Below the pieces are notes generated by a model. That model was given only the letters and a program-made list of their open reading frames with translations. It was not told the origin of the DNA and did not search any database. 64,000 nt of DNA from Candidatus Bathyarchaeia archaeon (GTDB lineage: Archaea; Thermoproteota; Bathyarchaeia; Bathyarchaeales; Bathycorpusculaceae). The DNA is taken from the NCBI GenBank assembly GCA_041447175.1, contig CP166960.1:1690519-1754518 (forward strand), read 5' to 3'. This document shows positions 9,151 to 31,513 of the stretch, one piece after another (positions within the stretch are counted from its first letter, which is position 1; every line of letters begins with the position of its first letter). The translations under genes and the position numbers were made by a program.

Positions 9151-10735
9151 TGCCTCCGAGTTCAAAAGCAGTGACATACCCCGATGCCCAGGGGTGTACC
9201 TGTACCGCGACGAGCAAGGGGAAATTCTCTACATAGGCAAAGCCAAGAACCTGCGTAGCCGCGTCAAAAGCTACTTCTCCAACGGCGATAAGCCCGCCAA
9301 AACGCGGCGGCTGGTTTCGCTTATTCGCCAAATTGACTGGGTGCTGGTCAACAATGAGGTCGAAGCGCTACTGTTGGAGAACAAGCTCATCAAGCAGCAC
9401 ACACCTAAATACAACATTAACTTGAAAGACGCCAAAACCTACGCCTACATCGCCTTCACCCGTGAACCCTACCCCAGAGTTTTGACCAGCCGCAAAGTCA
9501 GCCGCAAACTGGAGTCGTTTGGTCCCTACACCGACGGCTACACCCGCCAAGACCTCCAGCGCCTCGTGGTTCGGGTTTTTAAGCTGCGTACCTGCCGCAA
9601 AATGCCAAAACGGGCATGCCTAAACTTCCACATCGGTTTATGCTCGGCGCCCTGTATCAGTAACGTTAGCTTGGAGGGGTATGCGGGGCAGGTGGAGCAG
9701 GCACGGGCTTTTTTGGGCGGCAACTATGAGGACACCATCAAGGTGCTTTTGGCGCAGATGCAGCAATCCAGCCAAAACCAGCATTATGAGCGGGCACTGG
9801 AGCTTCGCAACCAAATCGCCTCCATTCGGCTCCTGACGCAGCGGCAAATCGTGGATAACGAGCGGCGGTTTGACCAGGATGTGATGGTTTTTCGGCGGGT
9901 TGGCGAGAAGGTGCGGGCGGTGCAGATGGGGGTGCGCAAAGGCGTTTTGCTGGGTAAGAAGGAGTTTTCGGTGGATTTGCAGCCGCAGGTGGAGCAGGAG
10001 CTTTTGAAGGCGTTTTATGCATCGAATCAGATTCCCCGCGAAATCCTGCTCAACGCACCCTGCTGGGAAGGGACAGTGGAGAAGGCGGCGTTAGAGGAGT
10101 TTTTGTGCTCAAAGCGAGGCGGCGCAGTTTCGCTTACGGTTCCTAAGCGGGGGGACAAGTTGGGGCTGGTGCGGTTGGCGGAGAAGAACCTTGAATCCAC
10201 GCTGGAAGAGGACAGCGCATTGGTTGACCTGCAAAACACGCTAAACTTGCCGACGGTGCCGCATGTGGTGGAGTGCTTTGACATCTCCAACCTTGGACAA
10301 GAACACGTCGTCTCAGGCATGGTACGCTTCACCGACGCCAAACCTGACCGCAAAAACTACCGCAAATTCAAAATCAAAACCGTCACCGGACAAGACGACT
10401 TCGCCTCCATGGCAGAAGTGGTCACCCGAAGATACAAGCGGTTGCAGGAGGAGAATGCTTCTTTGCCTGACTTGGTGGTTGTGGATGGGGGCCCGGGGCA
10501 GGTTGCCGCCGCCAAATCCGCCCTCACCACGCTTGGGCTACAGGTGCCGCTTATCGGGTTAGCCAAAGAGCACGAAGAAATCTACGTACCCGACGACCCC
10601 GCGCCGCTGCAGTTTAACAAGAACAGCCGTATGATGCTTTTCCTGCGCAAAGTCCGCGACGAAACCCACCGCTACAGCCTAGGCTACAACCTGAAGCGCA
10701 GGGAGATGAAGCTACGGGACGAATTTAAAAAATAG
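9134..10735 (+). CDS. uvrC: Excinuclease ABC subunit C, lacking the C-terminal HhH domain
   Basis: Dual-incision nuclease of excision repair, 533 residues. The N-terminal GIY-YIG nuclease is clear (PGVYLYRDEQGEILYIGKAK, with LRSRVKSYF after it). A central UVR helix pair (HYERALELRNQI) would contact UvrB. The RNase H-like second nuclease has VECFDISNLGQEHVVSGMV, LVVVDGGPGQVAAAKSAL and IGLAKEHEEIYVP. It stops shortly after RDETHRYSLGYNLKRR, where bacterial UvrC would continue into a tandem helix-hairpin-helix domain of about 60 residues that helps the 5' incision. That domain is absent. The ATG overlaps the end of uvrA by 17 bases. Confidence 0.96.
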   Translation: MIPIADASEFKSSDIPRCPGVYLYRDEQGEILYIGKAKNLRSRVKSYFSNGDKPAKTRRLVSLIRQIDWVLVNNEVEALLLENKLIKQHTPKYNINLKDAKTYAYIAFTREPYPRVLTSRKVSRKLESFGPYTDGYTRQDLQRLVVRVFKLRTCRKMPKRACLNFHIGLCSAPCISNVSLEGYAGQVEQARAFLGGNYEDTIKVLLAQMQQSSQNQHYERALELRNQIASIRLLTQRQIVDNERRFDQDVMVFRRVGEKVRAVQMGVRKGVLLGKKEFSVDLQPQVEQELLKAFYASNQIPREILLNAPCWEGTVEKAALEEFLCSKRGGAVSLTVPKRGDKLGLVRLAEKNLESTLEEDSALVDLQNTLNLPTVPHVVECFDISNLGQEHVVSGMVRFTDAKPDRKNYRKFKIKTVTGQDDFASMAEVVTRRYKRLQEENASLPDLVVVDGGPGQVAAAKSALTTLGLQVPLIGLAKEHEEIYVPDDPAPLQFNKNSRMMLFLRKVRDETHRYSLGYNLKRREMKLRDEFKK

Positions 10736-10767
10736 GGTTCCTGCACCTAATTCTATCTTGTTCTTAG

Positions 10768-11613
10768 TCACTTAAAGCGACGCCGTTTCTTAATATCATC
10801 AATAGCTATCAGAATCATATTTATAAAGCCGAAAATTTCACAAAAAAGAGTCACTTCTATTAGAGAATTTGAGAATTCTTTGAATGTAAGCTTTGTAGGT
10901 TTTAAGGAGTACCTTTGAGTATTGGGAAATAAATCCCAAAACTCAATTTTATCGTCCATATCGTAATATTTGAAATTGCCATGTGCAATTGAATTCCTCA
11001 GGTTGCTGTGAATCCCATGGCTAAACTTATCAGGCAAAGTATTTAGGAACGCTTTTTCTTTTTCGAAACTTTCCCCAATTTGTATTCCCAAAGTCTCAGT
11101 GATTGAGACATCTTTTCCTTCACTTATTCTTTTCATTGCCAGGAGATTCTTTAAGACATTTTTGAAACTTCCTTCCATTAATATTAAGAAATAGAAGCAA
11201 GTCATGTAATACTTGGGCTTATTTTCTAGCTTTTCTGCCACTTTTACAATATCTTCCAATACTTGGTTAGTTTGGATTGTTCGCTCCATAACAGGAATCA
11301 AATCTTCTGTTAATTTGTTAAATCTCGAAGCATCAGTAGCAAGTGCACTTGTTACTATCTCCCAAATAAATAAAAAGCAACTATCCTTAAATCCTGAATC
11401 TTGATAATAATCTTCCCTATACGTTCGTATTTCTATTCTCAGTGTGTCCAGTAAGTCAAACAAATCTTGGTTAGTTGAGAACTTGTTTTTCAAGGAAAAA
11501 ACAATCCACTGAGATGTTTTCACTAGTTCTCTCCGTAAAAACAGCTCTGCAACATCTTCTGCACTTATTGGTTTAACATTTTGTTTTACATTATTACGCT
11601 TCTTGGAATTCAA
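10768..11613 (-). CDS. Hypothetical helical protein with HEPN-like RxxxxH motif
   Basis: A 281-residue, AT-rich, predicted all-helical protein. Near residue 205 the stretch LRNSIAHGNFKYYD fits the HEPN-superfamily motif (R-x4-6-H: R-NSIA-H), and its placement after a long helix is what that fold expects. HEPN proteins are commonly RNases in toxin-antitoxin and abortive-infection systems, but no partner gene is adjacent, so the role is open. Its base composition differs sharply from the neighbouring uvr genes, which suggests horizontal acquisition. It is convergent with uvrC, 32 bases apart. No signal peptide is seen. Confidence 0.55.
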   Translation of the reverse strand: MNSKKRNNVKQNVKPISAEDVAELFLRRELVKTSQWIVFSLKNKFSTNQDLFDLLDTLRIEIRTYREDYYQDSGFKDSCFLFIWEIVTSALATDASRFNKLTEDLIPVMERTIQTNQVLEDIVKVAEKLENKPKYYMTCFYFLILMEGSFKNVLKNLLAMKRISEGKDVSITETLGIQIGESFEKEKAFLNTLPDKFSHGIHSNLRNSIAHGNFKYYDMDDKIEFWDLFPNTQRYSLKPTKLTFKEFSNSLIEVTLFCEIFGFINMILIAIDDIKKRRRFK

Positions 11614-11894
11614 TTGGTAATCTCGCCTCCTGTGTTTTTTTGCTAAAGCAACTCTTTTTCAGCCACCAACGCTTCAATTGTCTGTCGGTCTCAGTTTATC
11701 TTGAAATCTCAACATATGTTTTCCAAACATTCGTCTGGCTGTTAAACATTTAGTTAGGGAGCGTTTCAGATGTTCGTATCTCCTTTTTTTACCGCTCATC
11801 GTTCTCAGTCTTAGACAGAAAATCACGACCAATCAATACGGACCAGTTTTTGAAAACATTTTAAGGTCACATGGAAAAATAGGTTGGTGAAATA

Positions 11895-14917: not shown

Positions 14918-16507
14918 ATGAAAACACACCCCGTTTGTTATTTGGTGTGGAGGTTGAGAAAAACTATTGACGCAGGGTTGTTCGTTTTTTTCATGGGAGC
15001 GTTGCTGGTTTTTTCCAATGGTAATGTGTTGGTTAATGCCACAGACACCGTAGTTGACCTCAGGTCATATTCAGCCGATTTGGGTTTTGAAGCTCAAAGC
15101 CTCACAGAGGAAACCTACGTGGACGATTTCAGCACCGACTCCCCACTGTGGACGCTGTATTGCAACGCATACCGTGACCCCACAAACCAGTATCTTGTCT
15201 TAACCGAGCCTAACGGTAATCTAGCTGGTGCGGCGTACTTCAAAATTCCCTTCACCAACGCTTTCACGGCTAACTTTAGCTTCAGTGTGGGAGGCGGAAG
15301 CGGCGGAGACGGCTTTACCATGTTTTTCTACAAACAAAACTACACCACCATGGGTGAAGGAGGCAGTTTAGGGTTTAACGATGACACCGCACCCATCCCA
15401 GGATACGCAATCGAGTTTGATGGATGGCAAAACATTGGCAGAGACCCATCCCCACCTAACGAGCCCGGCGACCCCTCCAGCAACCACATCGCTTTGATTA
15501 AAAATTGGATGGGCAACCACCTTGTCTATGTCAACGACAGCAGAACCGAAGACAACAAATGGCACGACGTTTCGGTTGTGGTTGGCGAATCCTACGTAGG
15601 GGTTTTTGTGGACAACGAATTCGTGCTCCGCTGGGACGGAACATTCAACAAAACCTACGGCTGGTTTGGCTTCACCGGCGCAACTGGAAGCGCAACAAAC
15701 TGGCATCTGATAGACAACTTTACTCTAACCAACACAGTTACGGAGCCACCCCTAACGCCAACCCGCCCAAACGCAGTCAACGCAACACGGTTCCCCTCTA
15801 CGCTCTCCATCGTAGCTGACGCGTCGTCCTCTGAAGTCGGCTCAACCGTGAACATTAACGGCAGAATCTCTAACGAAGAGTGCAATGCGTTGGGAGCGGG
15901 AAAAACAGTGGTCTTATCCTACGCGGTGGGTAGCAACGCGTCGTGGGTTCCGCTTGGTTCAGGGGAAACAAACGCGGCGGGAGAGTACTGTATTCAGTGG
16001 GTGCCTTGGGCGTCAGGCACATTCATGCTGAAAGCAGAATGGAACGGAGACCTAAACTACACTGGAGCCTGTAACTCGACGACAGTGTGTTTTCTGCCCG
16101 TCCAGAACCAGAAGGTTTTCTGTGTGGAATCCAACAGCACCGTCACAGGCTTAGCGTTCAATGACCCAAACCTCACTTTGGGCTTTACAGTCAGCGGACC
16201 CTCAGGAACCACTGGCTACACCAGAGTCGCAGTCGCCAAATCCTTAGTAGCCGACATCAACGCAATCAGGACACTGGTGGATGGAGAAGAGGTAAACTTC
16301 ACTGCGACGTCGGTGGATGAAAACTGGATGGTAGCCTTATCATACTCGCACAGCACGCACCAAGTAAGCATTGACCTGCAAACACAAGGAAAAGAACGCA
16401 CCAACTCACAGCCGTCTTCAGCGTTTGAGGTTGCAGCAATCACGACCGTGGTGGTAATTGCTGTTGCATCGGCAATAATTATGCAAAGAAAACAAGCGCC
16501 CAAATAA
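14918..16507 (+). CDS. Surface protein with L-type lectin-like and Ig-like domains
   Basis: A large secreted, membrane-anchored protein. After a basic N-terminus and a hydrophobic segment (FVFFMGALLVFSNGNVLV) comes a domain of about 220 residues with legume/L-type lectin hallmarks: GGGSGGDGFTMFFYKQ, GYAIEFDGW, and the segment ending WFGFTGATGSATNWHLIDNF. This fold binds sugars. Next is an Ig-like domain (VGSTVNINGRI, SWVPLGSGETNAAG, YCIQW), then a beta-rich domain, and a C-terminal membrane anchor VVVIAVASAIIM with basic tail RKQAPK. Many N-x-S/T sites suggest glycosylation. The frame is open from TTG 14819; I chose ATG 14918 as the start nearest the signal segment, but no clear SD decides it. 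Confidence 0.75.
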   Translation: MKTHPVCYLVWRLRKTIDAGLFVFFMGALLVFSNGNVLVNATDTVVDLRSYSADLGFEAQSLTEETYVDDFSTDSPLWTLYCNAYRDPTNQYLVLTEPNGNLAGAAYFKIPFTNAFTANFSFSVGGGSGGDGFTMFFYKQNYTTMGEGGSLGFNDDTAPIPGYAIEFDGWQNIGRDPSPPNEPGDPSSNHIALIKNWMGNHLVYVNDSRTEDNKWHDVSVVVGESYVGVFVDNEFVLRWDGTFNKTYGWFGFTGATGSATNWHLIDNFTLTNTVTEPPLTPTRPNAVNATRFPSTLSIVADASSSEVGSTVNINGRISNEECNALGAGKTVVLSYAVGSNASWVPLGSGETNAAGEYCIQWVPWASGTFMLKAEWNGDLNYTGACNSTTVCFLPVQNQKVFCVESNSTVTGLAFNDPNLTLGFTVSGPSGTTGYTRVAVAKSLVADINAIRTLVDGEEVNFTATSVDENWMVALSYSHSTHQVSIDLQTQGKERTNSQPSSAFEVAAITTVVVIAVASAIIMQRKQAPK

Positions 16508-20357: not shown

Positions 20358-20593
20358 TGTTCACTTTGTATATACGCACTTCGCATTCCTCTTCCGCGAG
20401 TAAACCTTCCTCAATCAAGACAACACCAAACTATCAAACAGGATGTCTTTTCAAAATCAAGCTCGTCCAAATGGTTTTCGCGGTTAATCTTTTCAGGGAG
20501 AAAATTCAGAGCTTTATCGCTCAGTTAATACGCAGATAAAAAACGGGCGCGCAAATTTTGGAAAGCCAAAAGGAAAGGGAAATAACGTTAACT

Positions 20594-20640
20594 ATGGCGG
20601 GCGGGGAGGGATTTGAACCCTCGACCCCCAACTTAGGAGG
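20594..20640. repeat. attL: 47-bp direct repeat (tRNA-Arg 3' half)
   Basis: Identical over all 47 bases to 29803-29849; flanking bases differ immediately on both sides. The minus strand reads as the anticodon loop, variable region, T arm, acceptor strand and CCA of tRNA-Arg(CCU), but no 5' half follows, so this copy is not a tRNA gene. In the plus-strand frame it encodes MAGGEGFEPSTPNLGG as part of the integrase. Confidence 0.93.
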
Positions 20641-21493
20641 AAAGAAAATAGATGGCTTGGATGTTGACCAATTCAAAGAATACCTATACAACAAGTACTG
20701 CAGGTCATATGCCAGCCAAATACTAAACTTTGTCTGCAAAAACGGTAAAGACTTCTTAGAAAACCCCTCAAAGCTGTTAACCATTAAGCCTTCAGTTAGA
20801 GGCAATGCACTCAAGTCAATGGTCTGTTTAGCCAAGTACCTTGGATGCTATGAAGAGTACAAAGGCAAGCTGAAAAGTCACGGAATTAAGTGGACTAATG
20901 AAGATACAGCGTTCAACGGCTTTCTAAGCATATTCTCAAAGCAACATGACACCTTGCCCCAATGGGTAAAAGAAGCCACAAGAGTTCTGCATGATAATGA
21001 GAGATTATTTCTAAGATTCCTTGCAACCACTGGGCTAAGGAAGAACGAGGGTATAACTTCTTTCAATATGGTTATAGAGCTTAACTCAGCTGGGAAACTC
21101 TGCGAATACTACAATGAAGAGCTAAACGTGCTGGAGCACTTCAAATATGGTAAGCTATTTCTAAGAGACACCAAAAATGCCTACATCAGCTTTGTAACTA
21201 AAGCCCTGATAAAAGAGATTTGTAGAAGTCAGCCAGTCTCTAATTATGCCATTCATTCTAGGCTAGATCGAAAGCACCTGAAGATGAGATTCAAGGAGCT
21301 AAGAAGCTATCACAACAGCTACCTACGAAAGCATGGCATAATCTCAGAGCTGGTAGATGTATTGGCTGGAAGAGTGCCTAAGACGGTATTTGTTAGACAC
21401 TACTTAGGTGAGGAAATGAATGCATTCAGCAACCAAGTTTTGTTTATAGAAAAAGAATTAGAAACGAAATTGCTTTCTAAACTGGTTAAATAA
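20594..21493 (+). CDS. Tyrosine integrase, C-terminal part (split gene)
   Basis: Catalytic part of an SSV-type tyrosine recombinase, about 299 residues from the ATG inside attL. A long helical region (DQFKEYLYNKYCRSYASQIL) precedes the catalytic domain. The expected residues are visible: Arg in ATTGLRKNEG, a Lys in FLRDTKNAYISF, Arg and His in KELRSYHNSYLRKHGI, GR in VLAGRVPKT, and the likely nucleophile Tyr in FVRHYLGEE. The frame is open upstream to 20558 only by chance of host sequence. The N-terminal part is at 29545-29849; in the integrated state neither piece makes a whole enzyme, so excision would need help from elsewhere. Confidence 0.9.
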   Translation: MAGGEGFEPSTPNLGGKKIDGLDVDQFKEYLYNKYCRSYASQILNFVCKNGKDFLENPSKLLTIKPSVRGNALKSMVCLAKYLGCYEEYKGKLKSHGIKWTNEDTAFNGFLSIFSKQHDTLPQWVKEATRVLHDNERLFLRFLATTGLRKNEGITSFNMVIELNSAGKLCEYYNEELNVLEHFKYGKLFLRDTKNAYISFVTKALIKEICRSQPVSNYAIHSRLDRKHLKMRFKELRSYHNSYLRKHGIISELVDVLAGRVPKTVFVRHYLGEEMNAFSNQVLFIEKELETKLLSKLVK

Positions 21494-21531
21494 TCTTAAA
21501 TCTTAAAAACTACTACTCTATTTGACTTGCT

Positions 21532-22410
21532 TTGAGCGGAAAACAGAAGTATCAAAACATTGTTCAAGAAATAAGGAATGACTTAGAATACATTAGAGAA
21601 TTACATGGGAGATTAATAACTGACCTAAGTCACGCAGAAAACCCTGTTCCAGCACCTCTAGACAAGATTCGTATTTTAAAGCTAAGGCGGTGGATAACTG
21701 ACATTTTTATAGATAAAATATTTGAGACAACTTTGAAAGTTAAAAACCTGCTAAAAGACCTATCTCTTGGTGTACATTATTGTTTTGACGCTTTTATCAA
21801 AGCATCTGGAGAAATAATAGAACACCTCAAAGGCATTGCTTTTTCTCAGACTTTGCGCATGAGTAGTGAGGAAGTTAAAATCGGTTTAAAGAAGCTGGAT
21901 TTTAATTTAGAGAGTTATGAGGTCAATGCTGAGAGATTGTTTGTAGAAATACGCAGTTTTCTTTACAGTACAGAATGGAAAAGGATGGCCAATGTTAGAG
22001 TTGAAGATTATGTTTTACCTACAAAACGTAACTCATATGTTAGCGCCAGAGAGGAACTTGAGAAAGCAAAGCAAGCGGTAAAGGATAATCATTGGGATGA
22101 AGTTTTAAATCATCTTAGACCTGCGATTGATTTGTCTATAAAAGAAAAGTTCAGTTTTAAGAAAATAAACCCGATGAAACAATTCTTGTTAGCTGCTAAG
22201 GAATCAGGTTTACCCCTCCCTACATATACTATGCTTTATGACTATTTTGATGAAGGTTCTCAGAGAATTCACTCAGGCAAACTTAATACTCCTTTTGAGT
22301 GTCAGAAAGCGTTAGAGTTTGTTGCTGGCTTCATAGACCGACTTGAGTTAATAGATGTCTCTGAAAAACAGATTGAAGAGTTTAAGCAGAAATGTAAGTG
22401 TGTAGAGTGA
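21532..22410 (+). CDS. Hypothetical helical protein, HEPN-like C-terminal half
   Basis: A 292-residue AT-rich, almost all-helical protein, starting at TTG 21532 shortly after the integrase. The N-terminal half has heptad-like charge patterns (QEIRNDLEYIRELHGRLI). The C-terminal third, with REELEKAKQAVKDNHWDEV, LRPAIDLSIKEKF and YDYFDEGSQRIHSGKLN, looks like HEPN or abortive-infection helical domains, including a short R-x-H, but the strict R-x4-6-H motif is not present. Co-directional with the integrase part and the next two genes. Function unknown. Confidence 0.6.
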   Translation: MSGKQKYQNIVQEIRNDLEYIRELHGRLITDLSHAENPVPAPLDKIRILKLRRWITDIFIDKIFETTLKVKNLLKDLSLGVHYCFDAFIKASGEIIEHLKGIAFSQTLRMSSEEVKIGLKKLDFNLESYEVNAERLFVEIRSFLYSTEWKRMANVRVEDYVLPTKRNSYVSAREELEKAKQAVKDNHWDEVLNHLRPAIDLSIKEKFSFKKINPMKQFLLAAKESGLPLPTYTMLYDYFDEGSQRIHSGKLNTPFECQKALEFVAGFIDRLELIDVSEKQIEEFKQKCKCVE

Positions 22411-22461
22411 TCTATCTCTGAAGTCTCTGAAAAAAATTACCTTTGCTGAATTTAAGAAAAG

Positions 22462-22740
22462 TTGGAAGAGCAAATAGCTAAGATTGAAGCCAGAGCCTTG
22501 GATAATGAAGCGGTGAGCAGAATATCATTACATTTCGATTCAGAGAAGGATAATTTTGAAATGCCCTTAGACGAGGAAGTAAAATATACAGATGTACTTT
22601 TTGAATTAGAGATGTTAGAGTCTAAGTTACAAATTGCTCTTGAGACTGCTAACAGTCGTTTTAAGTTAGAGAACAGGGGGATATGGGCTAAGGCATTCAA
22701 TGGCTTTTTTGATAAGTTGGCACAGAAACATGGAAAATAG
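22462..22740 (+). CDS. Small hypothetical acidic protein
   Basis: A 92-residue protein starting at TTG 22462 (MEEQIAKIEARALD). It is acidic and mostly helical, with a possible coiled-coil stretch VLFELEMLESKLQIALETAN. It lies 51 bases after the preceding gene in the same direction and is probably co-transcribed. No known domain. Confidence 0.45.
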   Translation: MEEQIAKIEARALDNEAVSRISLHFDSEKDNFEMPLDEEVKYTDVLFELEMLESKLQIALETANSRFKLENRGIWAKAFNGFFDKLAQKHGK

Positions 22741-22948
22741 TTTTTATGGGAATAGGTCTTTTTCTTGACCACTCTTGTTCTATGTCCTCTCAACTTAAAA
22801 GCCACGCCACAGCAGGCAAGCGCAGGGTCAATGACCAAAAAGTGTCAAAGAAGGACATTGAGACGTAAGACCATTTGCCCAATATGACATCATGCAGTTC
22901 AAAAAAGAATTAAACACAGTCTTGTAGACAAAAAAGAGGTCGTGAAAC

Positions 22949-23524
22949 ATGACGAAATATTATCCAATAGATTTTTTCTTTGATGGAACTCCTAAATCTG
23001 AACAATACTTTGTGTATGCAGATGTAAACAAACAAGCAGTAGAGCTGCTACTGGATGCTTTTTCCGAGGAATCAACAGCACATAGCCATTCATTAGCGCC
23101 AGTTGTTTATTTGTTGAGGCAGTATATTGAGCTGCAACTAAAGGGAATTATAGCATTTAATGAAGAGTGCCATGTTGTTTGGAGGACTCACAACATTCAG
23201 TCTCTCTATGAAGAAGCGATGCGCAATGTTAAAAAACAATACGGAACTGACCAAATAGGGCAGGCTAATCCTGAAGTTGAAAAATTCATTTTAGCTTTGT
23301 CTAATTTTGACCCGAAATGTGAAGCCTTCAGATACCCAGAAACTGTTGACGGAGAAAGTTTTGCAGAGTTGGCTGAAAAGATGGACCCGTGGCTCTATGA
23401 AACCATCACTGTGTTTGAGAAATTTGCTGACATTGCAACCAAAGTTATTGACGACCTAGAAGGAATAGAGGGCTACCTTGATATCATGTGGGCTAACGAA
23501 CAAGAAGGGTTTGCTAATCAGTAG
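22949..23524 (+). CDS. Hypothetical HEPN-like helical protein
   Basis: A 191-residue protein whose centre, LAPVVYLLRQYIELQLKGII followed after about 14 residues by THNIQSLYEEA, is a pattern I know from stand-alone HEPN-like proteins (a long helix, then a His starting the next helix). GAGGTC lies about 8 bases before the ATG. It ends acidic (LEGIEGYLDIMWANEQEG). It is the last of three plus-strand genes behind the integrase and is followed by a convergent gene. An RNase or defence role would be inference only. Confidence 0.55.
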   Translation: MTKYYPIDFFFDGTPKSEQYFVYADVNKQAVELLLDAFSEESTAHSHSLAPVVYLLRQYIELQLKGIIAFNEECHVVWRTHNIQSLYEEAMRNVKKQYGTDQIGQANPEVEKFILALSNFDPKCEAFRYPETVDGESFAELAEKMDPWLYETITVFEKFADIATKVIDDLEGIEGYLDIMWANEQEGFANQ

Positions 23525-23643
23525 TTGCTTTCATTTCAACATTCTAGGAAGAGAGAAAAGTTTAGGATATTGCTGAGACAGTTACTACGCCATAGGCGGC
23601 TTCTGTGCTCTGTTGTGCCACAACTTCATTCTTTAATAGATCT

Positions 23644-25230
23644 CTACTGAAGTTTCCCAATTCGTTTTCTGTAGATTAACGCTCCAGCTATTATTGAGAT
23701 AATTATCAGAGTCAAGAATATAGTTGAGGGAAACTCTGGTATTGTAGGCGACGGTTCAACGCTATGGTTTGTTATGTCTGATGGGTTTGCTGTTGTGATT
23801 GTGGTTTGTGGTTCGCGACTTGAAGAAGGTGAGGGAGAGACTGAAATAATTGCACTTTTGTATATTGGGTAATGGTCTATGTTTGCTCCATTGATAACAT
23901 ATGGTGCATTTCCTATGCCAGAGTTTTCAACTTCAGTTGCATTGGGATACAGCACCATATAATCACTCCAGTTGTTTCCTACCTGACCGTTATCCCATAA
24001 ATTAGACTCATTCCCAGCACTAACATAACATCCAGGAGGATTTTTAATATCTGAATCGCGAGGCAACAAAATATTCTTGTAAAGGAGATTGTCGCCAGAG
24101 TTAGATAGCTTGATAGCATAATGCCCTTGTACATAAGGGGTGAAGGTAATAGTGTTGTTCGTTATGGTGTTTTTAGTGGCATTTTCCATTTTGATGCCTC
24201 CCTCATTGTTTGCAATATAATTTCCGCTGATAAGGTCATTTTGAGCCGTGAGGTAAAGTCCATAATCAAACTTTCCAGTTATTGTATTATTGGAAATAAT
24301 GTTGTTTTGCCCACCATAATCTCCAATGGCATTTCCAGATGCATAGTTGTCATCAAAGCTTCTTGTCAAATTATTTCCAATCACAATACAAGAACTGCAC
24401 TGATTTATTGAGATTGTTCCTTTGAAAGCCAAGCGATTATCAAGTATGCATAGGTTTTTGCCACTAGCAACAAGTTCAACAAAATCATTATCACTAATAG
24501 TTAAGTTATTGCCATAAGCGCTAAGAGACGAGACAAGTCCAAAACTGTTATGTATAAACTGAGTATTGCTGCCATTTATTGAAGCGCTAGTACTGATGAG
24601 GTTTTTAGCAAAATACGAGTTTTCTCCATGTGCAAGCCAAAGGCTCGGTTGAACTCTATCCCCTTCTTTGTTTGTTATGTTATTGCCTATCACTTTGTTG
24701 TAAGATCCAATAAGTCCTAAACCGTTTATGCTGTTGTTTGAAATCAGGTTCGTGGTGCTAAGGCTTTCCAATTGAACACCAACCCCATTACCAGTTATAT
24801 TGTTTCCAGAAATGCAGCCATTTGTAAGACTTCCTCTTATACCCACATTAAAGTCGGTTATGACTAAATTCCTGATTGACACGTTGCTCAGTTCATTTAG
24901 GGTAAGTCCAGTAACTGCATAATAATCATCAAAAGGTGTGGGGTAGTTCCGCGTTTCAGTACCATTAATGGTGAAGCCTGAACCATCAATAACAATATCG
25001 CTTTTTTCTATAGCTATTCCGTGAGAATTGTAAATGTTATCCGTAAAAACATAGGTGTCTCCAAAATGTTGAATATTTTCTGTTCCTTCTATACTGCCAT
25101 CTGCTCTAATGATAATGTTTGCATCAACCATAATGGTTTTTCCTTCAACTGGCTTAATGGATGGGGCAATAAATATGACACAGACTAATGCGGTGGTCAG
25201 GCAGCATATGAGGTATTTGTTTGTTCTCAT
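23644..25230 (-). CDS. Beta-helix (NosD/PbH1-type) surface protein with PEFP anchor
   Basis: A 528-residue secreted protein. A signal peptide (LICCLTTALVCVIFIAPSI) is followed by about 380 residues of right-handed parallel beta-helix repeats: many N-N-x-I/L steps such as GNNITGNGVGVQLE, NLISNNSING, YGLYLTAQNDLISGN and KNTITNNTI. This is the NosD/PbH1 family of carbohydrate-acting or surface-structural proteins. Near the end DNGQVGNNWSDY fits archaeal NosD-like proteins. The C-terminus has a Ser/Pro spacer, PTIPEFP, a hydrophobic helix and a basic tail (YRKRIGKLQ). It is part of the element's cargo, unusual for a small mobile element. Confidence 0.85.
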   Translation of the reverse strand: MRTNKYLICCLTTALVCVIFIAPSIKPVEGKTIMVDANIIIRADGSIEGTENIQHFGDTYVFTDNIYNSHGIAIEKSDIVIDGSGFTINGTETRNYPTPFDDYYAVTGLTLNELSNVSIRNLVITDFNVGIRGSLTNGCISGNNITGNGVGVQLESLSTTNLISNNSINGLGLIGSYNKVIGNNITNKEGDRVQPSLWLAHGENSYFAKNLISTSASINGSNTQFIHNSFGLVSSLSAYGNNLTISDNDFVELVASGKNLCILDNRLAFKGTISINQCSSCIVIGNNLTRSFDDNYASGNAIGDYGGQNNIISNNTITGKFDYGLYLTAQNDLISGNYIANNEGGIKMENATKNTITNNTITFTPYVQGHYAIKLSNSGDNLLYKNILLPRDSDIKNPPGCYVSAGNESNLWDNGQVGNNWSDYMVLYPNATEVENSGIGNAPYVINGANIDHYPIYKSAIISVSPSPSSSREPQTTITTANPSDITNHSVEPSPTIPEFPSTIFLTLIIISIIAGALIYRKRIGKLQ

Positions 25231-25345
25231 ATTTCTCCCGTAGCGCTCTGTATTTGTTTTGTTCCCTTTTTATAATTTGTGGCACCATTTTGTGGTTCGG
25301 AAATAATCTTTGTTTGGTTTGGTAACACCAATTTAGGTAACTACA

Positions 25346-25534
25346 ATGCTTGAAGCAGAAGGAAGATTTGTTAACAGACCAACATCTACGGGTGGGAAAC
25401 TTTACGATAAATTCTTCATTTACGTGCCAACAGAAGTAGCTAGAGACGGATTATTTCCATTTGACACCAATGAGAAAGTTAAAGTGAAAATAGATGCCAA
25501 CAACAAAAGGTTAATTGTAGAAAAAGCAGAATAG
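25346..25534 (+). CDS. AbrB/SpoVT-like small DNA-binding protein
   Basis: A 62-residue protein whose middle, FFIYVPTEVARDGLFPFD, and end, KVKVKIDANNKRLIVEKAE, match the swapped-hairpin AbrB fold (strand, short helix, strand rich in K/V). Such proteins are antitoxins or transition-state regulators. There is no toxin gene next to it; it lies alone between two minus-strand genes within the integrated element, and may act as the element's own repressor. Confidence 0.6.
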   Translation: MLEAEGRFVNRPTSTGGKLYDKFFIYVPTEVARDGLFPFDTNEKVKVKIDANNKRLIVEKAE

Positions 25535-25616
25535 GCTGAGAAAATAATAAGAAACACCAAAAAGCCGTACCGTACGGTTTTTCTTAATCTAACTTTCACA
25601 CCTTCTGAAAGGGCTA

Positions 25617-26201
25617 TTAAGTAGAATTTAGGGAAAGAGATAGTTTTTCCCTTAACTTTATTTGCATAGCCTTCTCTTCATAGATATCATCAATTGCCTT
25701 GTTGGAAATCTTTACGCCTTCTTCAAAGAAGTGTTTCCAACCCCTGCCCAACAGTTTACCACTTAAAGTGTGTTTGTCTTTTGCATAATCGGGAATCTCC
25801 AGCTTTCTTTTGTCAGCATAAACAGTAATCAACAAATTATCAACTACCCTACTCTTAGGAGACCTAGCTAAAAACAAAACAGCATAAACTAGAAATAATC
25901 TGCAACCATCATCTTCTCTTCCCTTAAAATCAAAATATTGCCTCTCTAACACATCCACAAGCAAAGTCGCATTGGGATTAGCTAAACCAACATCTTCTGA
26001 CGCTATCACTCTAAGCCTATTCCATAATCCTTTAGGATTTGCAGTCTCTATCTTGGTTGCCCAAAACACAGCCTCATACTCATTCCCTCTTCTAATATCC
26101 TTTTGCAAAGCAGACATCAACTCATCCCACTCATAAACCCCATCTATCTTGGGCTTGGATGCGTTGCCACATTTAGAGAAATTAGTCTGTAAACTAGTCA
26201 T
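25617..26201 (-). CDS. Free-standing RarA/MgsA C-terminal-like protein (no ATPase)
   Basis: A 194-residue protein matching only the C-terminal region of the replication-associated ATPase RarA/MgsA. Segments in the expected order are WDELMSALQKDIRRGNEYEA, VFWATKIETANPKGLWNRL, IASEDVGLANPNATLL, then LFLARSPKSRVVDNLL and IPDYAKDKH with GRGWKHFFEEG. In RarA these follow the AAA+ module and mediate tetramer formation; here no Walker motifs are present. ATG 26201, preceded by GGGTGA at 5 bases, is preferred over 26228. It overlaps the gene upstream by 8 bases. Such free C-terminal modules are, to my memory, found in phage genomes; a role in element replication is inference. Confidence 0.75.
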   Translation of the reverse strand: MTSLQTNFSKCGNASKPKIDGVYEWDELMSALQKDIRRGNEYEAVFWATKIETANPKGLWNRLRVIASEDVGLANPNATLLVDVLERQYFDFKGREDDGCRLFLVYAVLFLARSPKSRVVDNLLITVYADKRKLEIPDYAKDKHTLSGKLLGRGWKHFFEEGVKISNKAIDDIYEEKAMQIKLREKLSLSLNST

Positions 26202-26862
26202 GGCAATCACCCTTCTGTATGGAAGCAAGGAGTCTAACCATAAAAGAATAGTTCAACCTCAACATACAGCTTTTCAGCTTATTTATTCTAATTCTTAATC
26301 TAAAATTTCTTAAATACACTATATTACAGGAATCATTAGTTGGAGTTAACAACACCATCATACTACTAGTTCGGTCATTCTGCAAGTGAGTGTTTCCGAC
26401 ACAGTTGATTTTATAGAATTTAAGGTGAGGATTCTCTTCTATGAGTGATGCAATGAGCGCCCATAATTCATCCGAAGTTGGAAGAGTTTCTGTGTGAATA
26501 TAGATAATGCCCAACTCCTTAGCCTCTTCTATCTGTGATTCACTTCTAGTAGCTCCAAAACTGAAGTGTAATCTAAACTGAATTTTGTCCCCATGTTTAA
26601 CATAATTCCCAGTTACCCATTCTAATCCATTGTATAGGTTGCTATTTATGCTGGTTATTCTTTCATCACTAAAATAGGTATTAGGTTGCCAATAGTTCAC
26701 TTCGTAGGCACCAAATTCTACTCCATTTTTTTTAAAAATGCCATCACAGCCACGCTCACTAACATCATGCGATTTTACAAAATAGCCATGTGAAGTAAAT
26801 GCATACGCAACTAAGTCTTCCGCAATCTTACCTTTCGCTTCATTGTTTTGATTATAAACTAT
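26194..26862 (-). CDS. Hypothetical protein, possible nuclease fold, no standard start codon
   Basis: The first conventional start (GTG 26700) gives 168 residues, but the frame stays open and protein-like for 54 codons more, up to ATA 26862. The extra part reads IVYNQNNEAKGKIAEDLVAY, then FVKSHDVSERGCDGIFKKNG and EFGAYEV. This spacing (E in AED, D in CDG, then EV) resembles the core of restriction-endonuclease-like (PD-(D/E)xK) folds, although the last Lys is replaced by Asn. The gene upstream ends inside this start region, so the start may be an ATA codon or depend on frameshifting. The 3' end overlaps the RarA-like gene by 8 bases. Confidence 0.5.
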   Translation of the reverse strand: MVYNQNNEAKGKIAEDLVAYAFTSHGYFVKSHDVSERGCDGIFKKNGVEFGAYEVNYWQPNTYFSDERITSINSNLYNGLEWVTGNYVKHGDKIQFRLHFSFGATRSESQIEEAKELGIIYIHTETLPTSDELWALIASLIEENPHLKFYKINCVGNTHLQNDRTSSMMVLLTPTNDSCNIVYLRNFRLRIRINKLKSCMLRLNYSFMVRLLASIQKGDCHD

Positions 26863-27124
26863 TACCTTTCACCTTTTCCAAAAATATTTTACCTTTATTC
26901 ATTACAACTCTGACATTCTTAAAATCAGCATTATTCTTCACACGCCACTTAAGAGAAGATAAAATAACCCTAACATTTTGACTAGGAAAGGCTGCTAAGT
27001 TTACCTCGTAATAATCACTTTCAGAAGCTAAAAATTCTCGTAATGCTTCATCATATTGTGGAAGTCTTTTAACCTTAGACTTAGGCATTTTATCTGAGGA
27101 TATTGGTTTACCATATTTTCCCAT
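26852..27124 (-). CDS. Small hypothetical protein
   Basis: A 90-residue basic protein (MGKYGKPISSDKMPKSKVKRL) of no family I recognise. The frame is open to 27184, but the ATG at 27124 has a perfect GGGAG 5 bases before it and is chosen. The end NVRVVMNKGKIFLEKVKG is strand-rich. It begins a three-gene minus-strand cluster in the element, each overlapping the next. Confidence 0.5.
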   Translation of the reverse strand: MGKYGKPISSDKMPKSKVKRLPQYDEALREFLASESDYYEVNLAAFPSQNVRVILSSLKWRVKNNADFKNVRVVMNKGKIFLEKVKGNSL

Positions 27125-27254
27125 TATTTCTCCCAACTTTTCCAAAAAACGATTGTCGTAATCTGTAATATATAATAGGTACAACGTAACTTATAAGCGT
27201 TGGTCTAGAATTTCAATTGAAGGCAGACATAAGCAAAAAAAATTCAGTTAAGAG

Positions 27255-27989
27255 CTATATGGGGTGTCTGATGTATTTCTGCATAAGTGGAATTAATCCG
27301 TTAGTAACTTCTATCTCAATTAGTTTGGCAGTATCTATGTAGTATAAACGCAGTTTCTGAATATGAGGCGCTGATAATCTCAATAGCTCATCACATTGAT
27401 TTGGATATCCAAAAGGACCCTTTGGATGCAACCCATTTTCAAACATATCAAATTTTGCTTCAAACAGTTTTTCTGAAAGATTTAGTTTACGCTCATTAAG
27501 AAGGTCTCTATATACTCCATGGTCAAGTATCCAATTAGCAATCACACCCGCATCATGAGCATCAATAGAAAATTGTGTGATGTAGGTTTTCCAATCTTCG
27601 TAAATGTGACGCCTAGTCTCAGCATTTAATTTGGATAATTCTCTAAATCTAGGGCATATCTGATTGGAAAAAAGAGCTATCTTCTCATAGAGTCTCTTGT
27701 CATGAGCCATCATAAACTCAAATAACCCACTTTTTCTGATTCTTTCTAATTCTACAAAGTCTGTTCGCAACATATCAGGTCTTTCTAAAAAATTTTCAAA
27801 CGTTTCCTTCTTGGTGTGAATTTCTGATAGAAGAGGAATATATGTCTCCTTAACATTACTTATAATGTATTGAGACCGGTATTCCCACTTTCTAACCATA
27901 AACAGAAAAACTGCGTTACCAACAACAGTCAAGCTAGCAGCCAAAAGAGGAATAAACAAAGGATTGGCAAATACATCTACAACAGCCAT
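27255..27989 (-). CDS. Hypothetical membrane-anchored helical protein
   Basis: A 244-residue protein with one N-terminal membrane segment (LFIPLLAASLTVVGNAVFLF) followed by a largely helical cytoplasmic domain rich in charged and aromatic residues. No motif is recognised. It is AT-rich like the rest of the element. It is upstream of, and in the same direction as, the three-gene cluster at 25617-27124, separated by 130 bases. Confidence 0.5.
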   Translation of the reverse strand: MAVVDVFANPLFIPLLAASLTVVGNAVFLFMVRKWEYRSQYIISNVKETYIPLLSEIHTKKETFENFLERPDMLRTDFVELERIRKSGLFEFMMAHDKRLYEKIALFSNQICPRFRELSKLNAETRRHIYEDWKTYITQFSIDAHDAGVIANWILDHGVYRDLLNERKLNLSEKLFEAKFDMFENGLHPKGPFGYPNQCDELLRLSAPHIQKLRLYYIDTAKLIEIEVTNGLIPLMQKYIRHPI

Positions 27990-28479
27990 CTGTTATACGC
28001 TCAGTCTATTTTAGCTAAAATACTTCTCAGTTGTTTAAAAAACTTCATTTTCCATGGTCCATGGTAAAATATTAATTTGTAATCACCACGCGTAAACATG
28101 TCCCTCCATGTCACCTATATCACGATACTATTTAACTACTTTATTCGTTCAGCTAAGTTTCTACGTTGACCAGAGCATCAGCTTTAAGAGATGGAGCAGG
28201 CACCAAGACCATTGACCATAAGCAGAAAAGAAGGACTAACACATGGATACAACGTTAAAACCAACATGAAAAACATATTTCGTCACAAAAAGTGGACATA
28301 CTCTACAAGAGGCATTGGAAAATTGTGTATACACCAAGAAAGGCATTGGTGGCGTATAATATGGGTAAGAAAAAGCCAATCTCTGAAGACACAAAGAAAA
28401 GAGACATACAACCAATTCAGAATCTCTGTTTATTAGGCATAACCCACTAAAACCGTACGGGTCATTTAGTAAATATAAG
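27990..28479. other. Intergenic stretch in the element
   Basis: A 490-base AT-rich gap between divergent genes. Open frames here are short: one of 81 codons from 28191 and one of 52 codons from GTG 28292 (VDILYKRHWKIVYTPRKALV, ending GITH). Neither has an SD or a known domain, so they are not called. The gap may contain the element's origin or regulatory region, but no iterons or strong palindromes are seen. Confidence 0.4.
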
Positions 28480-29442
28480 ATGTATTGCTCCGTTTCTAAA
28501 ACTTTAAAGCAAATCAAAGCATCTTTCTTTCTAAGAGGAAGAGGAACGTCACAAAAGAAAAACTACTTCAGATTAATTAGTTCTAAAAAGTGGCACCAAG
28601 CAGCCTTTGTAATTGTTATGGGCTTTTTATTTGGAGCCGCTACATCCATTGCTAATCCACCAACACCCTTAGGAATTATTCCAACTTTCTTTTTGATGAG
28701 TCTAATAATGATGTATGGTATTTTGTTTTTCTTTGGTGGCTTCGCTGATCAAATGCGCCCAATTTTACCCCACAAAGCTAAAAAGATAGTAAGTTCCAAA
28801 TCTTTTTTAGGTTGGATTATTTTTACAATTGCGTGGTTAGTGATTGGTGGCTGGATTGTTATAAACAACAATTCAGAGTTCTTAGCCAAGTCTTGGGTGT
28901 ACACCTTCTTAGGGCTATTCATTGCGTACCCTTGTATAGCATCACTAACAGTCTATGTGTCGTCTTTTCAATATCTTAAGGACTCAAAAGACGATTATAA
29001 AAAGAAAAAAACAATTGTTAACTCATTGCTTTTTCTAACAATCGCTCTTGCATTCCCGTGGATTCTCATAATACTTCTAATTTCATATGATTCACTACCA
29101 ATGTGGGCAAGTTTTATTGTGTCGTTGGCTATTTACGTGAGCATTTTTTTCTGCGCTATTGACTTACCGTATTATCTTTCGATGGAAGAAACTAAGACAA
29201 AGAAAGTCAATGGGTTAAAACGTCTAAGAGAAAAATTAATTGAAGAACTCTGCTTTGAAAATAGAATGGACAGAAGATATGCGATGGAACTTAATATTCA
29301 ACGCATTGATAGAGACAGCCAAAGGAACAAATCTGAATCATCTCACCCCTATTGGGTCTTGAAGCCAATTGCGGGTTTTGTGGTTGTAAGCATTCTAGCC
29401 AATCTTCTTGTAGAGATATTAAAGGTTCTTTTGAACATATAA
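28480..29442 (+). CDS. Hypothetical multi-pass membrane protein
   Basis: A 320-residue protein with about seven hydrophobic segments: WHQAAFVIVMGFLFGAATSI, IPTFFLMSLIMMYGILFFF, FLGWIIFTIAWLVIGGWIVI, VYTFLGLFIAYPCIASLTV, IALAFPWILIILLISY, WASFIVSLAIYVSIFF and a last helix at the C-terminus. Between the sixth and last lies a charged cytoplasmic loop of about 90 residues (KKVNGLKRLREKLIEELCFE). No transporter motif is seen. It lies just before the integrase N-terminal part. Confidence 0.55.
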   Translation: MYCSVSKTLKQIKASFFLRGRGTSQKKNYFRLISSKKWHQAAFVIVMGFLFGAATSIANPPTPLGIIPTFFLMSLIMMYGILFFFGGFADQMRPILPHKAKKIVSSKSFLGWIIFTIAWLVIGGWIVINNNSEFLAKSWVYTFLGLFIAYPCIASLTVYVSSFQYLKDSKDDYKKKKTIVNSLLFLTIALAFPWILIILLISYDSLPMWASFIVSLAIYVSIFFCAIDLPYYLSMEETKTKKVNGLKRLREKLIEELCFENRMDRRYAMELNIQRIDRDSQRNKSESSHPYWVLKPIAGFVVVSILANLLVEILKVLLNI

Positions 29443-29544
29443 CCAAAAGACGTTCTTTCGCTAACTCTAAAGAACTTGCTCTTAGGGGTCTTTAAATCCT
29501 AAATTGACCACTCCAGATGACCAAAACTGTAGAGTGGAGACAAA

Positions 29545-29877
29545 ATGAAAATTAAATGCTACAGATTTGAATGCGCCCAATGTGGAGATACAGCCTCTAT
29601 TCAAGTGTTTTACAGAAAAGACGGAACAATAGGATACACTAGGGCTAGACACAAGAATACTCAAGGATTCTACTACCACCAACTAACAAGGGAATATGTT
29701 GAGCAGAAACTTAGAGAATTAAGCACACTTGACCAAGGTCAATCATCTAATGACAAAATCATTGACCCAAAAAACATACAATTAAACCCTAAACAAGGAA
29801 TCATGGCGGGCGGGGAGGGATTTGAACCCTCGACCCCCAACTTAGGAGGCTGGTGCTCTTTACGTCCGAGAAGGTAA
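29545..29877 (+). CDS. Tyrosine integrase, N-terminal part (split gene)
   Basis: The other half of the element's integrase. ATG 29545 has GGAG 5 bases before it. The first about 40 residues form a zinc-finger-like module (CYRFECAQCGDTASIQ, then YTRARHK), known from N-termini of archaeal integrases, then a helix. From 29803 the frame reads through the attachment repeat (MAGGEGFEPSTPNLGG) and ends 9 codons later in host sequence. Joined at the repeat to the left-end part, it would give one integrase of about 385 residues. Confidence 0.85.
   Translation: MKIKCYRFECAQCGDTASIQVFYRKDGTIGYTRARHKNTQGFYYHQLTREYVEQKLRELSTLDQGQSSNDKIIDPKNIQLNPKQGIMAGGEGFEPSTPNLGGWCSLRPRR
29803..29849. repeat. attR: 47-bp direct repeat within tRNA-Arg
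   Basis: Perfect copy of the repeat at 20594-20640. Here it is joined to a 5' tRNA half at 29850-29912, so the host tRNA gene is rebuilt by the element's own copy of the 3' half, as expected for integration into a tRNA. Confidence 0.93.
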
Positions 29878-29912
29878 ATCCTCACTCGAAATCCGTACTG
29901 AGCTACTCGCCC
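29804..29912 (-). tRNA. tRNA-Arg(CCU), with about 30 extra bases in the D-loop
   Basis: Minus-strand cloverleaf: acceptor GGGCGAG/CCCGCCC with one A-C mismatch at position 6-67, D stem GCTC/GAGC, anticodon arm CCAGC-CTCCTAA-GTTGG (anticodon CCU), T arm GAGGG-TTCAAAT-CCCTC, discriminator G and encoded CCA. The D-loop is far too long. Removing about 30 bases (roughly 29863-29892) leaves AGTACGG-TAAA, a normal loop with the conserved GG. The extra part folds on itself (CGAG/CTCG and AGG/CCT), and TACG/CGTA flanks it, so a non-canonical intron is likely, though a strict bulge-helix-bulge is not clear. The element is integrated in its 3' half. Confidence 0.85.
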
Positions 29913-31354: not shown

Positions 31355-31385
31355 TGTACCCTGCAAAGATGTATGGGGTGCTGGT

Positions 31386-31502
31386 GCAGGGGTACCCGAG
31401 CCAGGTCTAAATAGGCGGCCAAATCGCCCCCTAGGACAAGGGGGAGGACTTAAGATCCTCTGACTCAGGTCTTCGTGGGTTCGAATCCCACCCCCCGCAC
31501 CA
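31386..31502 (+). tRNA. tRNA-Leu(UAA), with about 30 extra bases in the D-loop
   Basis: Class II tRNA: acceptor GCAGGGG/CCCCCGC with one A-C mismatch at 3-70, anticodon arm GAGGA-CTTAAGA-TCCTC (anticodon UAA), a long variable arm starting TGACTCAGG, T arm GTGGG-TTCGAAT-CCCAC, discriminator A and encoded CCA. The D arm starts CCC-GAGCCAGGTC but the matching GGG comes only about 30 bases late. Removing about 31413-31442 or a nearby window restores a normal D-loop and an 87-nt tRNA. The extra stretch contains GGCG-GCCAAAT-CGCC, a stable hairpin. This is the second tRNA in 1.6 kb with a likely D-loop intron. Confidence 0.85.
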
Positions 31503-31513
31503 TCAGGGTAAAA

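Follow-up and report, generated by a model that had tools for sequence, protein, structure and literature searches.

A probable SSV-type integrated element with an integrase gene split at tRNA-Arg(CCU) in a Bathyarchaeia genome, and its relatives in the class

Suicidal integrases in archaea

The fusellovirus SSV1 of the Sulfolobales integrates into a tRNA-Arg gene. Integrases of this type I, or "suicidal", mode carry the attachment site of the element (attP) inside their own gene, and integration splits that gene; the Pfam family PF16795 has been tied to such enzymes (PMC8371274). Here we describe an element of 9.2 kb in the genome of a Candidatus Bathyarchaeia archaeon (assembly GCA_041447175.1, contig CP166960.1, positions 1,690,519 to 1,754,518). 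This whole stretch of 64,000 nucleotides is called the window, and coordinates of the element refer to it. We are highly confident that the element is a plasmid-like one that entered by SSV-type site-specific recombination, its integrase gene (int) being split by its own attachment site (att). With the SSV1-type elements it shares PF16795 and the catalytic residues, an attP within int, the use of a tRNA 3' half, a probable crossover at the anticodon loop (suggested for the window element by the repeat boundaries) and the division of int into an N-terminal piece, int(N), and a catalytic piece, int(C). It differs from them in that its catalytic part matches at the level of distant profiles, in its zinc-finger-like N-terminal domain, in its Bathyarchaeia host and in the lack of recognised fuselloviral structural genes. 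Furthermore, its relatives use either tRNA half and a second N-domain fold.

The pT26-2-type elements of the Thermococcales are likewise suicidal, and within one family many tRNA genes are used, 14 targets being reported (PMC8371274, PMC6972569). The text consulted describes no switch of tRNA half and no replacement of the N-terminal part by an unrelated fold, a comparison made by description only. The pTN3-type elements, also from the Thermococcales, use the 5' half, which is deemed unique to pTN3-like elements among archaea (PMC8371274), whereas both halves are used within the Bathyarchaeia family, the 3' half being that of the window element. NitEve-E3 of Nitrososphaera evergladensis (PMC6563490) resembles the window element in being cryptic, in its split integrase of the SSV1 kind and in having no viral genes. 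It is, however, one reported case from the Thaumarchaeota, and this comparison too is by description only. As far as the accessible text of the literature extends, published suicidal families use one tRNA half per family. Searches of open-access full texts turned up no account of integrases of the SSV or suicidal type from Bathyarchaeia, which is weak evidence of absence. The available portion of a paper on Bathyarchaeia viruses reports viral integrases, not the SSV-type suicidal mode (PMC10848311). The integration mode is known; what is new is the family-level variant, with both tRNA halves and an exchangeable N-terminal domain.

An integrase gene split by its own attachment site

Two direct repeats of 47 bp, 100% identical and spaced 9209 bp apart, are located at positions 20594-20640 and 29803-29849, as an initial annotation of the window had noticed. 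The sequence has these two copies and is found nowhere else in the 2,733,033-bp single-contig genome. The G+C content is 36.8% between the repeats and 47.9% across the remaining window. The left repeat (attL, plus strand) is in frame with an open reading frame (ORF) at 20558-21493 and the right repeat (attR, plus strand) with an ORF at 29545-29877. The frame is the same at both ends, which bears out the earlier claim that both repeats share the frame of an integrase with its N-terminal piece on the right and its catalytic piece on the left. AttL represents the displaced 3' half of tRNA-Arg(CCU), read in antisense and in frame with int(C); attR is in frame with int(N) and forms, on the minus strand, the 3' half of the tRNA gene that is intact. 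Joining the ends of the element in silico (29849 to 20641) yields a circle junction with an uninterrupted ORF of 385 codons encoding a tyrosine integrase. Upstream of the att end on the int(C) side, 105 codons are open in the register set by the repeats, compared with 1 and 8 in the others. An attP inside the integrase gene, a gene split by integration with its frame restored at the junction and an att within a tRNA gene that is reconstituted upon integration are all features of type I, SSV-type integrases, and all of them are seen here.

The int(C) piece (20641-21493, plus strand) comprises the core-binding and catalytic part and matches PF16795 (Phage_integr_3) with 33.6 bits, the curated cut-off being 27. 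A profile of 15 homologues matched the SSV1 Int structures 4dks, 3vcf and 3uxu with E-values of 0.002-0.004. An AlphaFold2 model of int(C), with a predicted local distance difference test score (pLDDT) of 79, gave Foldseek matches to an archaeal Xer recombinase and to SSV1 Int (3uxu/3vcf) with a probability of 1.00 and weak E-values. The residues R133, K178, R221, R244 and Y254 are intact in the window and invariant in the 15 homologues, and R221, R244 and Y254 align with SSV1 Int residues in the profile match. We take the five to be the catalytic residues of a tyrosine recombinase (R, K, R, R, Y), with roles as in SSV1 Int.

The int(N) piece (29545-29802, plus strand) encodes an 86-residue, zinc-finger-like N-terminal part with the pattern CxxC ... 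H ... YH. No Pfam model matched it. The pattern is common to other int(N) pieces, and the window int(N) is homologous to those of other elements (52% to that of the relative L074). PF16795 and the catalytic residues, the in-frame att, the int pieces at opposite ends and a tRNA that is intact at the int(N) end together support the SSV-type mode proposed at the outset. The exact rejoining upon excision that had been predicted is reproduced by the 385-codon junction ORF. Autonomous excision, on the other hand, is not supported, as neither a second PF16795 match above the cut-off nor an intact integrase of the SSV type was found in the genome.

The tRNA-Arg(CCU) target and its intron

The minus strand of 29804-29912 reads GGGCGAGTAGCTCAGTACGGAT, followed by 31 nt and then AGAGCACCAGCCTCCTAAGTTGGGGGTCGAGGGTTCAAATCCCTCCCCGCCCGCCA. 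Its predicted fold is that of a tRNA with a stem in the D loop (z = -5.0). This is tRNA-Arg(CCU) with an encoded CCA and a D-loop intron of about 31 nt (approximately 29860-29890, the limits being inferred from relatives). The insert is regarded as an intron because relatives from the same genus have tRNA-Arg(CCU) either without it (two of six) or with differing inserts at the identical point (four of six). ARAGORN, run with and without anticodon-loop introns, and Rfam gave no call of this tRNA, presumably due to the non-canonical intron. Its identity was established by folding and by the genus homologues, and the target named in the initial annotation was thereby corroborated. Since the repeat matches only two places in the genome, this is presumably its only tRNA-Arg(CCU) gene. 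The att starts at the anticodon loop, and the D-loop intron is thus on the host side, outside the element. The tRNA now in use would have the 3' half of the element, and the left repeat would be the displaced 3' half of the host.

Among seven genomes of this genus (window 29860-29890, L023-L028) the D-loop intron of tRNA-Arg(CCU) varies in sequence or is missing. In a sister species (locus L023; G002, contig 11) the tRNA-Arg(CCU) at 6689-6821 hosts a different element of 4.9 kb (approximately 6822-11780). Its Xer-like integrase is frameshifted, and the frame seems to cross the tRNA 5' half in antisense. The 5' half of the host, together with the D-loop intron in it, was displaced by that insertion, and the 5' half of the functional tRNA is now a different one that contains another intron; the intron was apparently swapped by a mobile element. 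In L024 (G006) an extra copy of the tRNA-Arg(CCU) 3' half lies 0.8 kb from the intact gene (10557-10613, 11339-11447), with a methyltransferase-like ORF between the two, representing a small element or a remnant. A probable tRNA-Leu(UAA) with an insert near the D loop, not called by ARAGORN and partly conserved in genus relatives, is found in the window at about 31383-31503 on the plus strand.

Distribution of the integrase family

A profile search found the integrase family in 50 of 257 genomes of the class (34 of the 120 high-quality ones), as well as in other classes of the phylum. The remark of the initial annotation that few such elements are described agrees with the sparse descriptions, but their occurrence is common. 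A separate search for related loci, made with a narrow alignment of the family, returned four named loci from Bathyarchaeia genomes and nothing from viral contigs. The named relatives come from "Candidatus Bathyarchaeota" and "Ca. Bathycorpusculum" records, consistent with the Bathyarchaeia-type host suggested earlier.

About 50 loci were retrieved and scanned for direct repeats abutting int(C), and the 29 elements with both ends present, the window included, were used for a register control. With the true register, 24 of the 29 had a frame open for at least 60 codons upstream; with the shifted registers the counts were 1 and 2. In the bounded relatives ARAGORN called an intact tRNA at just one of the two ends, which is that of int(N) in 27 of them and that of int(C) in L063. 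Where the att partner lies off the contig, int(C) likewise adjoins a tRNA-derived half in nearly all cases. In two loci, L059 and L062, the integrase gene is unsplit and contains a tRNA half at the corresponding position. Their contigs were considered as free circles and rejected, lacking terminal overlap and carrying chromosome-like genes, and they serve only as evidence for the unsplit gene. Stops or frameshifts are present in some relatives (L029, L034, L036, L085). L090 has an att of 75 bp, at 1437-1511 and 15180-15254 as read in the direction of int, and the intron of a tRNA-Lys(CUU) is part of it, with the integrase frame running through that intron.

Two tRNA halves and one probable crossover position

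In the window element and 19 relatives the integrase gene reads antisense through a tRNA 3' half, whereas in eight relatives it reads in sense through a 5' half. The sense reading of a 5' half, the likeness to the pTN3-type, is exemplified by L030, L031, L032, L033, L056, L088 and L089; L063, L071 and L076 look like further orientations. The repeat ends a median of 3 nt past the anticodon in both groups, at 2-5 nt in 23 of 27 relatives and at 3 nt in the window. A position 2-5 nt past the anticodon is the edge of the anticodon loop, where cleavage by SSV1 Int has been mapped (PMC8371274), and the agreement holds for both halves. The anticodon stem forms a dyad, so the same crossover could serve either orientation.

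On the int(C) tree the tRNA half changes at least eight times over 46 labelled rows, the labels of elements without both ends having been assigned by eye; shuffling the labels gave a mean of 12.1 changes (range 8-14). Judged by this comparison, the use of a tRNA half appears to be partly inherited, yet to have switched repeatedly.

Apparent exchange of integrase modules

The int(N) pieces are of different types, zinc-finger-like in 13 elements and CcdA-like in at least ten, while a few were given neither label; all ten CcdA-like pieces scanned matched PF07362. The unsplit genes of L059 (also L092) and L062 (also L093) are 78% identical in the N-terminal part and 33% in the catalytic part, with near-identical att from the 5' half of tRNA-Arg(CCU), and the pair is an apparent natural chimera. 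Conversely, L079 and L080, both at tRNA-Pro(UGG), have unrelated N-terminal parts and 65% identity in the catalytic part. L074 and L080 share 69% in the N-terminal and 35% in the catalytic part. Over 28 rows the N-terminal label changes at least seven times, compared with a mean of 11.5 (range 7-15) in shuffles. To go by these alignments, the N-terminal and catalytic parts seem to have been exchanged independently of each other.

A shuffling of int(N) and int(C) was proposed for suicidal integrases in a 2021 review (PMC8371274), and the pairs found in Bathyarchaeia fit and extend that model. The exchange may have taken place through recombination at the att; a similar pattern would be expected if domains had been captured repeatedly or if homologous recombination had occurred at other places in int. 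We give an even chance to the idea that the enzyme is modular and has its hinge at the tRNA-derived att. Recombination at the anticodon loop or close to it would then join unrelated N-terminal modules, zinc-finger-like or of the CcdA/ribbon-helix-helix kind, with different catalytic halves, and would even switch the tRNA half.

Cargo genes

The ORF next to int(C), of 292 amino acids (21532-22410, plus strand), gave only a sub-threshold HEPN match, and a search of 91 genomes from the host family yielded no relative. It is followed on the same strand by ORFs of 92 (22462-22740) and 191 amino acids (22949-23524). A NosD/parallel beta-helix protein of 528 amino acids (23644-25230, minus strand) has a sub-threshold PEF-CTERM match and partial matches in L032 and L033, and is probably surface-exposed. 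The next ORF, of 62 amino acids (25346-25534, plus strand), matched no family and has a homologue 58% identical in L080. On the minus strand a protein of 203 amino acids (25617-26228) with the MgsA/RarA C-terminal domain has a homologue 48% identical in L055. Homologues of this protein occur as short stand-alone ORFs in 23 of the 91 family genomes, and a second one (49%) is located elsewhere in the window genome (G000:C1:46576-47115). ORFs of 168 (26194-26700), 110 (26852-27184) and 244 amino acids (27255-27989), the last with a hydrophobic stretch at its N terminus, are also on the minus strand. A hydrophobic protein of 320 amino acids (28480-29442, plus strand), again without a relative in the 91 genomes, is probably a membrane protein.

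Fuselloviral VP1, VP3 and a DnaA-like ATPase had no match among the cargo ORFs tested in Pfam, or among the ten ORFs searched in PHROGs and NCBIfam. Nothing suggestive of a pT26-2 core module appeared in the general scans of these databases, in which no dedicated core models were applied. A defence island was considered and rejected, the PADLOC matches being weak only (E about 0.02).

Integration and present state of the element

In the circular form, int would be whole, consisting of the zinc-finger-like domain, about 16 antisense codons through the 3' half of tRNA-Arg(CCU) (attP), and the core-binding and catalytic domain. Strand exchange by Int would span the anticodon loop (7 bp) of the tRNA gene in the chromosome. 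The 3' half brought in by the element would complete the tRNA at the right end and the host 3' half would be displaced to the left end, with int split into int(N) and int(C) and integrase activity brought to a stop. As the genome has no further PF16795 gene above the cut-off, excision would need an intact related integrase acting in trans, from another element such as a superinfecting relative. The excised circle, the exact cut positions and the need for a foreign integrase are what we infer from this scheme. The perfect repeats and undamaged int halves suggest that the insertion is recent.

Some observations weigh against entry as a mobile element. No replication, capsid or structural gene was recognised in the cargo by Pfam, or by PHROGs and NCBIfam for ten ORFs, and autonomous mobility is unproven for this reason. 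The circle-junction pattern had no match in the IMG/VR viral contigs, and the window integrase no tblastn match among public phage or plasmid records. Furthermore, an empty site with both flanks was not found among the six genus relatives, in which nothing corresponding to the left flank lies beside the tRNA. These relatives possess the tRNA, with rearranged DNA on its 3' side. The search for the locus without the insert, recommended by the initial annotation, accordingly revealed synteny of the right flank, whereas the left flank is not comparable and an empty site is not shown.

It is conceivable, though in our view somewhat doubtful, that the element entered by the SSV-type route and is now immobile, a fossil with decaying int pieces and host-domesticated cargo; this is compatible with the origin proposed here. 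The split int with no intact homologue in the genome, the lack of a replication gene and the two tested cargo ORFs without relatives in the host family are in line with it. The int parts and repeats are, however, undamaged (att 100% identical, no stops), unlike those of the four relatives with stops or frameshifts, and integrases of this family that might act as helpers occur commonly in the class.

Improbable is a self-excising element, whose Int(N) and Int(C), as separate translation products, would come together again as an active enzyme. Open frames are kept in both pieces, and the joint is a tRNA-encoded linker, very different in sequence among relatives, so that the halves may be structurally separate. 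Against this, truncated integrases were inactive in vitro and the halves of IntSSV2 showed no interaction in DNA-free solution (PMC8371274). We consider it very unlikely that a free circular element was wrongly joined to the chromosomal tRNA in assembly. The genome is presumably metagenome-assembled and a 47-bp identity could support a wrong join, yet one contig of 2.73 Mb spans both junctions and the same geometry recurs at about 28 other assembled loci with other tRNAs. That this is a classical lambda-like type II element, with an intact integrase elsewhere and two ORFs matching by chance, can be practically dismissed: tRNA 3' halves are often open in antisense, and the att part alone could be open by chance, but the N-terminal part outside the att is homologous to those of other elements, the excess in the true register extends over 29 elements, and the element contains no further gene recognised as an integrase.

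Significance

Taken by itself, the window element, which very probably entered by the SSV-type route, is well preserved and ordinary. The survival of integrases that destroy their own gene is an open question that has mostly been studied in hyperthermophiles. In the about fifty relatives, mostly from uncultivated archaea, the shuffling is readable from sequence, so that the model becomes testable. The relatives also provide a set of integrases with a wide range of tRNA genes as targets. If the att is indeed a hinge, it would mean that these integrases persist and change target though every integration destroys them, and that elements with 5' halves or intron-bearing halves can replace the intron of a host tRNA.

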